In this document: positions 1,018-32,027 of the stretch, piece by piece | Layout: the number at the start of each line of letters is the position of its first letter | How positions within the stretch are numbered: the stretch's first letter is position 1 | Position numbers and translations under genes: made by a program | Assembly: GCA_017399865.1 (NCBI GenBank) | Contig: JAFQAT010000011.1 | Coordinates: forward strand, 1-34,533 | From: Bacteroidales bacterium | Lineage (GTDB): Bacteria > Bacteroidota > Bacteroidia > Bacteroidales > UBA932 | Length of the DNA: 34,533 nt | Reading direction: 5' to 3' | The notes under the pieces: model-generated | Database searches by the model: none | Seen by the model: the letters and a program-made list of their open reading frames with translations, nothing else | Told to the model about the DNA's origin: nothing

Positions 1018-1673
1018 TGAACATCGCAGTATACAGCGGATCATTCAATCCGTTGCACATAGGCCATCTCGCCATCATGAAATATCTTGCCGGCGAGGGA
1101 GGCTTCGACTGCGTATATCTGATAGTTTCTCCCAAGAATCCCCTGAAGGATGGCATAAGCGCCGACTCCGGAATGGATCGTTACAATGCCGCCGTAGAAG
1201 CCGTAAAACGTCATTTTCCCTCAGGGGCTGGGGACATTACGGACACCCCCGGCTTCCCTTCGGTCAGCCACCCCCTAGCCGTGGGTGGCATGTGTCCTGC
1301 ATGTTCCCCAGCCCCTGAGGGAAAGGTGAAGGTTGATGACATAGAACTCAGAATGCCGGCGCCACACTACACGATCAGGACCCTTGACGCTCTACGCGAA
1401 CGCGAGCCGGAAAACACATTCACCCTCGTGATGGGCGCAGACAACCTGGCAGACATACGCAGATGGCGAGACTACAGCCGCATCCTCAAGGAATACGGAG
1501 CGGCCGTCTATCCGCGCAAAGGATTCAACCTCGACATGATCATCAAGGACCTTACGGAAGAAGACCCTTCGTTCAGAATCAGTGTCATGAAAGCAGAAAT
1601 GGTCGACATTTCGTCGACCACTATCCGCAATGCCATGGCAGAGGGACAGGACATGTCCCGATGGCTTATGTAA
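1017..1673 (+). CDS. nadD: Nicotinate-nucleotide adenylyltransferase carrying an in-frame palindromic insertion
   Basis: NadD adenylates nicotinate mononucleotide to deamido-NAD in cytoplasmic NAD synthesis. The nucleotidyltransferase signature GSFNPLHIGH is at residues 8-17 and ISSTTIR at 198-204, with MGADNL in the middle, so both ends of the active site are intact. The protein is 218 residues, about 20-35 more than I expect for Bacteroidota NadD. The excess lies at residues 67-103, encoded by the palindromic element at 1215-1324. As I recall homologues, the helix ending at AVKRH is followed almost at once by the strand starting near VKVDDIELRMPAPHYT, so the insert sits at a loop. The frame is kept and no stop is introduced. 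The gene's stop abuts the stop of the convergent HerA-like gene with no spacer. Whether the enzyme works with the insert is unknown. Confidence 0.93.
   Translation: MNIAVYSGSFNPLHIGHLAIMKYLAGEGGFDCVYLIVSPKNPLKDGISADSGMDRYNAAVEAVKRHFPSGAGDITDTPGFPSVSHPLAVGGMCPACSPAPEGKVKVDDIELRMPAPHYTIRTLDALREREPENTFTLVMGADNLADIRRWRDYSRILKEYGAAVYPRKGFNLDMIIKDLTEEDPSFRISVMKAEMVDISSTTIRNAMAEGQDMSRWLM
1215..1324. repeat. 110-base nested palindromic element inserted in frame in nadD
   Basis: The ends are a perfect 20-base inverted repeat: TTTCCCTCAGGGGCTGGGGA at 1215-1234 and its reverse complement at 1305-1324. Inside, CAT at 1235-1237 pairs with ATG at 1301-1303 past a one-base bulge. After a 3x3 internal loop, GGACAC (1241-1246) pairs with GTGTCC (1292-1297). 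GCCACCC (1267-1273) and GGGTGGC (1283-1289) form an inner 7-bp hairpin. The element is clearly GC-richer than its surroundings. In the nadD frame it encodes residues 67-103, from FPSGAGD to SPAPEGK. I found no second copy in this window and no clear target-site duplication. It is either a mobile or repeated palindromic unit or a lineage-specific structured insertion; copy number in the genome would decide. Confidence 0.8.
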
Positions 1674-31167: not shown

Positions 31168-31229
31168 CAAAAGAATCAGTTTAGAACTATTCAAAATTAT
31201 AACTTTTAACCCAATAAACGAAAAATATC

Positions 31230-31358
31230 ATGGCAAAGAAATTCAGATGCATAGTATGCGGATATATCCACGAAGGTGAAACTGCTCCGGACGAGTGTCC
31301 TCTCTGCTTTGTAGGACCGGAAGATTTTGAAGAAGTTACCGAAGAGGAGGACGCATAG
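31230..31358 (+). CDS. Rubredoxin, stand-alone 42-residue protein
   Basis: This small cytoplasmic iron protein should carry single electrons. It is 42 residues ([17 protein letters not shown]...). The four iron-binding Cys are C7 and C10 (CIVC) and C23 and C26 (CPLC), in rubredoxin spacing as found in rubrerythrin-type domains. It ends in an acidic tail EEVTEEEDA. It aligns closely with the first 37 residues of the next gene, including Lys-Lys, CGYIHEG, ECP and VGPE-FEE, so it looks like a duplicated domain freed from its diiron partner. It has its own promoter, and the rubrerythrin gene begins 45 bases downstream. It may supply electrons to that peroxidase; this is inference from position and similarity. 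Confidence 0.88.
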   Translation: MAKKFRCIVCGYIHEGETAPDECPLCFVGPEDFEEVTEEEDA

Positions 31359-31403
31359 ATATTAAGAATAGATGTTGAACATATAATAACCACGATTGAA
31401 ATT

Positions 31404-31955
31404 ATGGTAAAGAAGTACAGATGTCTGGTATGTGGATATATCCACGAAGGAAATGAGAAGCCACAGGAATGTCCTATCTGCCACGTAGGACCTGAAAAAT
31501 TCGAAGAGATCGTTGCTACAGGCGACGCGCTTACATGGGCTGACGAGCATAAGATCGGCGTAGCACAGGGAGTTGACCCAGAAATCCTCAAGGGACTCCG
31601 CGACCACTTCGCTGGCGAGTGTTCAGAAGTGGGAATGTACCTTGCAATGAGCCGTCAGGCAGACAGGGAAGGATATCCCGAAATCGCAGAAGCATTCAAG
31701 AGATATGCATGGGAAGAGGCCGAGCATGCAGCCAAGTTTGCAGAACTTCTCGGAGAATGCGTATGGGACACAAAGACAAACGTAGAGAAGAGAATGCTTG
31801 CAGAGCAGGGCGCCTGCGAAGACAAGAAGAGGATCGCTACTCTTGCAAAGCAGCAGAATCTTGACGCAATCCACGACACAGTACACGAGATGTGCAAGGA
31901 CGAGGCACGTCACGGAGCAGGATTCCAGGGACTTTTCAACAGGTATTTCAAATAG
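31404..31955 (+). CDS. Rubrerythrin with N-terminal rubredoxin domain (reverse rubrerythrin type)
   Basis: This 183-residue non-heme iron peroxidase is expected to reduce hydrogen peroxide (and possibly oxygen) to water in an anaerobe. The rubredoxin domain is N-terminal (C7, C10, C23, C26), the reverse of classical rubrerythrin, where it is C-terminal. The ferritin-like diiron domain follows: [54 protein letters not shown] and, near the end, [25 protein letters not shown], with the Glu and ExxH ligands in place. It shares the promoter of the preceding rubredoxin and ends before a strong hairpin at 31975-32008. The family and layout are clear; the physiological reductant is not known. Confidence 0.94.
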
Positions 31956-31974
31956 TCCTGCCCCTACAGACAAC

Positions 31975-32008
31975 TACCGGTCGGAGATTTCATGATCTCC
32001 GACCGGTA
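31975..32008. terminator. Bidirectional terminator-like hairpin between rubrerythrin and the S4 gene
   Basis: A perfect 14-base inverted repeat, TACCGGTCGGAGAT (31975-31988) and ATCTCCGACCGGTA (31995-32008), has a six-base loop. It lies 20 bases past the rubrerythrin stop and 20 before the stop of the convergent S4 gene. There is no strong T-tract on either side, so it is a hairpin that could end transcription from both sides or protect 3' ends. Confidence 0.7.
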
Positions 32009-32027
32009 ATCGTTTATGATATGTTGG

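Follow-up and report, generated by a model that had tools for sequence, protein, structure and literature searches.

The window analysed here, the whole 34,533-nt stretch of contig JAFQAT010000011.1 from a Bacteroidales draft genome (G000, 78% complete), carries on its plus strand a 218-aa open reading frame (1017-1673) that was identified as the nicotinate-nucleotide adenylyltransferase gene nadD by TIGR00482 (117.3 bits, over the cut-off of 112.45), with PF01467 also matching the encoded protein. In frame within this gene, at codons 67-103, lies a palindromic unit of arm, core and arm (1215-1324), just where the original prediction had placed a 110-base insert bounded by perfect 20-base repeats. 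The two arms (1215-1234 and 1305-1324, the right arm being the reverse complement of the left) form a perfect 20-bp inverted repeat around a 70-nt spacer, the longest perfect inverted repeat in the window at spacers of up to 110 nt; the longest such repeats in 20 first-order Markov windows measured 10-14 bp. The predicted hairpin is likewise recovered by RNA folding of positions 1210-1329, which gives -73.7 kcal/mol (z = -6.7), a fold that none of 200 shuffles equalled. Searched with up to three mismatches, the arms have no second occurrence in their own genome (78% complete). Furthermore, the motifs SGSFNPxHxGH and SSTxIR, which we take to be the active-site motifs of NadD, are intact on both sides of the insert, in agreement with the original reading, and are kept in 23 aligned relatives.

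Between the arms, the conserved core (1236-1302, minus strand) scores 70.1 bits (E 1.6e-14) against the covariance model described below, a match that holds by construction, the nadD core being one of the model's 22 training rows. In the core alignment of 22 copies, helix 1 pairs positions 1241-1246 (its 5' side as read on the plus strand) with 1292-1297; the variable hairpin, helix 4, which covaries between copies, spans 1250-1270 on the minus strand; and a sequence-conserved box, here GCCACCCACGGCTAGGGGG, occupies 1271-1289 on the same strand.

A repeated core confined to one genus

Searching the genome of origin with 120 bases around the insert returned 37 matches at E <= 10, mostly with the insert's interior. 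One conserved core recurs across the 28 loci that were read, enclosed for the most part by near-perfect inverted repeats that differ between loci; the repeated unit is this inner branched-hairpin core of ~65 nt, made up of an outer helix, the conserved box and a variable hairpin, and not the full 110 bp. In core orientation, its consensus can be written approximately as GGA-nn-GTGAC-AT-GCCACCCCCGGCTAGGGGG-variable hairpin-GGGGGTCAC-nGGAAT, with a type B core in which GGCATTTTGCCACCC replaces GACATGCCACCC; the nadD copy carries the core in reverse reading. Further copies, on whose existence the original prediction had made its wider claim depend, are present: the covariance model finds 34 in the genome of origin (E <= 0.0012).

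The core structure comprises four helices, hand-set from the same sequences over 22 aligned rows, with four type-B and two divergent rows left out. Paired cells make up 93% in this hand-set structure across the 22 copies. Cells with changes on both sides number 53 against 17.7 in shuffles, and the covariation score is 0.321 against 0.122 in shuffles, neither value being reached by any of 500; sliding the structure gives at most 0.096. At the level of single pairs, 10 have changed on both sides against 7.1 in shuffles (one shuffle in 500 reaches 10), and further pair types show no excess over this control (14 against 14.3; 370 of 500 shuffles). Helices 1 and 4 vary with compensation, and helices 2 and 3 and the box are nearly invariant. 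Such covariation does not prove an RNA function, because template switching yields the same pattern; excerpts of two studies describe template switching as homogenising inverted-repeat arms and inverting the spacer between them (PMC8604942), and as a process by which hairpins can be created and maintained (PMC8794818). Helix 1 went undetected when RNAalifold was given all 28 rows, probably owing to the joint alignment of two subfamilies, and the hand-set 22-row structure was used in its place. An Rfam 15 scan of five loci at the 'evalue' threshold gave no family that reaches its gathering score; of its four sub-threshold matches, each to a eukaryotic small-RNA family, three fall on the element.

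Two further observations concern core variants. An additional nested hairpin of ~45 nt, starting at about GGGTCGYGAGCGRC, is found within the core at L104:19185-19299, L113:5965-6072, L113:10348-10455, L115:7166-7281, L119:9985-10099 and L138:5051-5163. Separately, long hairpins at L151:12992-13056, L166:4570-4633 and L178:7557-7596 have unlike arms and a common loop near TTTCCCTTATTTTTC; they may belong to a second core family whose arms vary.

The family is real and restricted to one genus of gut Bacteroidales. Eleven of 61 genomes, the genome of origin included, match at E <= 0.01, all of them from the same genus, with G015, G019 and G034 giving weak matches only. By covariance model, 53 of 400 same-genus genomes are positive at E <= 1e-6, and copy number reaches dozens in some members of the genus; an order-wide draw of 295 genomes contained a single positive, the genome of origin itself. 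An exact 25-base core pattern was found in 53 stretches of a genome-contig collection, on contigs from Bacteroidales, Bacteroidia or Bacteroidaceae MAGs whose titles mostly name a ruminant. Viral contigs gave no exact match to one 24-base core pattern, and carriage of the element by phage was set aside on that result. The window does come from a single draft genome, 78% complete, which would speak for an assembly artefact; given that filled argC, metH and RluA-family sites are common to different genomes and that remnants of the element stand in nadD elsewhere, an artefact is barely conceivable. It could also be supposed that nothing moved and that each palindrome grew in place by template switching, as the locus-specific arms and the long, perfect core-less hairpins common after genes here might suggest. 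Local growth cannot, however, put the same core at 34 places or in 53 genomes, and we hold it to be extremely improbable.

Placement of the copies relative to genes

Gene context was read, with an ad hoc quick gene caller, in 80 stretches of up to 20 kb from eight genomes together with the window, a sample that includes some but not all of the known G007 copies. These gave 100 covariance-model matches at E <= 0.5, of which the best 94 were kept and the six weakest left out. Forty-one of the 94 copies lie antisense in tandem spacers, 26 in convergent spacers, nine sense in tandem spacers, two in divergent spacers, 14 in ORFs and two at contig edges. The proposed description of an ORF-inhabiting repeated element stands in part: the element is multi-copy and occurs in frame in eight identified genes besides nadD, but it is mostly intergenic, with 78 of the 94 copies outside ORFs. 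Specifically, most copies closely follow a stop codon; in the 67 tandem-antisense or convergent copies, the median distance to it from the core 3' end is 24 bp, and in 60 of them it is at most 43 bp. Orientation in tandem spacers is strongly biased (41 antisense vs 9 sense; binomial p 5.6e-6), and divergent spacers are avoided, as they hold two of 94 copies although the same DNA has 352 spacers of 100 bp or more, 105 of them divergent (194 tandem, 53 convergent).

The orientation bias could reflect function instead of mobility. Perhaps the core is a functional 3'-UTR RNA element, acting in mRNA stability, processing or termination and copied for its usefulness, with the in-gene copies as accidents; its biased orientation and short distance after stop codons would agree with such a role, as would the conserved box and the covarying helices, and the arms at the 26 convergent sites are often bidirectional-terminator-like (15 have an A-run of at least four on the 5' side and 12 a T-run of at least four on the 3' side). 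Yet a T-run of at least four follows the hairpin in 5 of the 41 tandem-antisense copies, which are thus not typical intrinsic terminators, and template switching can make arms and helices covary without selection. The patchy distribution (53 of 400 same-genus genomes), the residence in frame in nine identified coding genes and the empty orthologous sites described below also count against the 3'-UTR explanation, which we consider unlikely. Insertion of the core into a terminator loop, entertained as a general rule, was dropped, as most tandem copies have no U-tract.

Among convergent spacers of 30-500 bp, 37 of 76 contain a long hairpin without the core and 24 contain the element; among divergent spacers, 6 of 141 contain such a hairpin. 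One such perfect hairpin, with loop TTCATG, lies between convergent genes at 31968-32014 of the window, a place at which G024 has the element (L124:9911). Other repeats were noted in passing: the window holds a 59-nt repeat, 80% identical, at 31218-31276 and 31392-31450, at the starts of two adjoining reading frames that are rubredoxin-like by eye, and the gmk-nadD spacer of G024 (L071:740-890) holds a tandem repeat of a short unit, AACAGAGGAAGGACGA...

Copies within ORFs fall in nine identified kinds of housekeeping gene, namely nadD, truB, an RluA-family gene (G000, G021), murB (G026, G024), hemW, argC (G000, G021), metH (G000, G021), prmC and shikimate kinase, and in one unidentified ORF of G021. 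The nine kinds were named by Pfam or NCBIfam in a scan that left out the G021 argC and metH proteins themselves, and the RluA-family protein is over the Pfam cut-off and below the NCBIfam subfamily cut-off. Residence in frame is here a reading of open reading frames; as the in-ORF copies were found by way of an open ORF, copies that break the frame go uncounted, a form of survivorship. The conserved box is read as PL[AP]xGG in 8 of the 14 in-ORF copies and in other frames or orientation in the remaining six. The truB gene of G000 has, in addition, a second, degenerate match (L142:9836-9905, E 0.46), where the frame gives ATPLAAGGGACSEGAGG. Other in-frame repeats occur in nadD of G032 (L255) and G160 (L260), murB of G024 (L122) and G026 (L135) and the RluA-family gene of G021 (L109); their peptides are SCHSERSEE/HSEERSDV-like or GRNDNKES (GGTCGAAATGACAACAAGGAATCA; tandem in G032).

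Empty, filled and altered states of orthologous sites

That the nadD segment is an addition relative to homologues, as first proposed, is borne out by the relatives. The G021 gene is empty, 96 nt shorter net (561 vs 657), and reads HFPAGKVKV where G000 reads HFP...GKVKV; the element is absent from G024 nadD as well, and 21 of the 26 other same-genus nadD genes that were read encode 185-189 aa (three further loci had no recognisable motif). Remnants with internal deletions are also seen: G280 nadD (203 aa) holds similar arms with a partial core in the opposite orientation, and G400 nadD (204 aa) holds arms and apparent core ends ATTCC...CTACAT, the remainder being gone, both partly read by eye. 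The NadD of G265 has 195 aa, and the same loop carries an unrelated repeat in G032 (255 aa) and G160 (207 aa); the varied inserts at this one place indicate that the loop tolerates insertions.

Sites in other genes show the same range of states. In metH, 99 nt are missing from G007 with a flank identity of 86-88%, 99-114 nt are missing from G024, G026 and G063, and G080 has a truncated copy. In argC, 102 nt are missing from G136 and G083 and 105 from G124, and the genes of G021, G080 and G090 align unbroken across the insert. Altogether, 33 of 86 partly overlapping orthologous comparisons were scored empty, although degenerate matches outside the 94-copy set are present in at least two of the 33 (#72, #84); this many empty sites speaks further against a 3'-UTR element kept for its function. 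Intergenic site #24 of G000 carries a plain hairpin whose arms resemble those at the filled G021 site and whose short loop is ATTACAT, the structure expected after an internal deletion of the core. No compared flank exceeds ~90% identity, and thus no very recent insertion was seen.

The arms behave differently from the core. Over the 18 nt adjoining the core, mean complementarity is 0.80 within copies (n=92, two of the 94 lying too close to a contig end) against 0.44 between copies; most copies are framed by a locus-specific inverted repeat, with a median of 15 bp, so that unit and frame together fold into a single long hairpin. Between unrelated copies, arm similarity is near that of random arms, one G000 cluster (L141:10159, L143, L146) with some similar flanking sequence being the exception, and transposition of the whole unit with its arms was rejected on this ground. 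Among 18 orthologous filled pairs, mean arm identity is 0.62 and mean complementarity 0.74; the arms are identical or nearly so in three pairs, and the core is inverted relative to its flanks in five. In many of the pairs, the arms have diverged without losing their complementarity, the outcome that template switching would give. The RluA-family gene illustrates how arms can differ and still pair: roughly half of the arm positions agree between G000 and G021, while within each copy the arms remain complementary (0.83 and 0.94), and the insert peptides can still be aligned (GTAVIGWG/GMDVSGYG). Some orthologous pairs with unlike arms might be separate insertions.

Several empty sites bear on what the core enters. 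The empty nadD genes of G021 and G355 have a short native palindrome, TTTCC-5nt-GGAAA, at the insert site, and the metH site of G007 has a small imperfect palindrome with which the outer part of both G021 metH arms aligns; at most other empty sites among those listed, both arms are missing too. Judged from these alignments, insertion into an existing hairpin would be supported in part.

Proposed origin and relation to known palindromic repeats

No clear tie to a RAYT/IS200 partner emerged, and this candidate was set aside on that ground. PF01797 has no match in the genome of origin (78% complete); among the same-genus genomes searched, it is found in 5 of the 6 that bear the element and in 9 of the 22 others (Fisher p 0.16). 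Nine PF01797 genes occur in element-bearing genomes; of the eight examined, seven have no core in the surrounding 2-3 kb, and for one, in G024, the distance to a core is ~3 kb. An autonomous relative did not turn up. Non-coding, ~100 bp, multi-copy and patchy as it is, the family might be taken for a classical MITE that an insertion-sequence transposase mobilises in trans, and comparison of L102 with L152 gives, by eye and between distant relatives, one possible direct repeat, TCAGATAA, at both edges. The ends of MITEs are conserved inverted repeats, however, whereas this family has no conserved terminal repeats and its unrelated arms, the one G000 cluster excepted, are no more alike than random; furthermore, stray half-core matches number just six in 1.44 Mb, two of which are degenerate copies adjoining known ones. 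A MITE origin is accordingly quite improbable.

We instead propose, with a probability of roughly 70%, that the nadD insert is a copy of a non-autonomous, genus-restricted palindromic repeat that is or was mobile, and that its entry, arm rewriting and survival within genes took the following course. The unit would enter DNA by a hairpin- or single-strand-based route, with a preference for the 3' ends of genes and perhaps for small palindromes already present. During replication, a switch of template from one arm to the other would then homogenise and lengthen the two arms and sometimes flip the core. Within genes, survival would be limited to copies sitting in a tolerant loop with the reading frame preserved, and these would later decay by in-frame deletion. 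More tentatively, and against the odds as we judge them, the family may represent a new class of minimal mobile DNA, in which a ~65-nt branched-hairpin core enters small pre-existing palindromes, either hairpin loops that follow genes or loops tolerated within them, and replication template switching builds, repairs and rewrites the arms at each site. If true, this would be an element without fixed termini, which relies on the host to produce its inverted repeats anew wherever it settles instead of carrying them, and whose life cycle includes arm homogenisation and core flipping.

To our knowledge, in-frame palindromic elements are chiefly those of Rickettsia and Wolbachia, and Rickettsia palindromic elements (RPEs) are conserved over their length between copies. 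Excerpts of the literature describe RPEs as in-frame palindromes of about 150 bp, many of them within unrelated metabolic genes (PMC10969869, PMC3733652), and mention Wolbachia palindromic elements (WPE; PMC3733652). As far as these excerpts go, the present family resembles both in being palindromic, of similar size, multi-copy and in frame in unrelated genes, with a recurrent encoded peptide; it is unlike them in its different phylum, conservation of the core alone, locus-specific arms, mostly post-stop placement and core inversion at orthologous sites. The likeness to RPEs claimed in the original prediction is upheld, as a likeness in behaviour, by the 14 of 94 copies in ORFs, the recurrent PL[AP]xGG and the empty orthologous sites; as to sequence kinship, no RPE-named family is among the NCBIfam matches listed at E <= 1 for 10 host proteins (the best 25 for two of them).

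REPs, which are associated with RAYT transposases, are similarly multi-copy hairpins near gene 3' ends. According to excerpts, they are 14-40 nt long and rarely extend into coding regions (PMC12306157, PMC3733652), and CGTC-tagged REPs exist in Bacteroidetes (PMC3733652); the units described here, in contrast, reach ~100 bp (a core of ~65 nt plus arms with a median of 15 bp), lie in ORFs in 14 of 94 cases and have no clear tie to a Y1 transposase. Intragenic MITEs are reported to be capable of forming in-frame fusions with genes (PMC10969869), and a MITE of Porphyromonas has been published (PMC4596501). Like MITEs such as ERIC, RUP and Correia, the family is small, non-coding and repeated; unlike them, it has no conserved terminal repeats, and no parent IS was found. 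By description, it may also be likened to the selfish-looking hairpins that spread in compact genomes, among them the double-hairpin elements of fungal mitochondria and the palindromic repeats of Volvox, although those belong to organelles and the present ones to bacterial genomes. The Volvox repeats have been published as repeats of organelle genomes (PMC2670323).

The matches listed in open-licence literature include no palindromic family residing within ORFs of Bacteroidales. New here are the arms specific to each locus, the conserved core, the core flipping and the taxon; in its in-frame residence within genes the family works as RPEs do, with a different build and a mainly extragenic distribution. 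Among gut Bacteroidales, many species show the same genes in different states, whether empty, filled, inverted or decayed, which makes element entry and protein reshaping testable by comparison. They also supply natural examples of coding sequence in which the two arms of a palindrome change jointly, a setting that makes a role of the RNA structure a less likely reason for the change.
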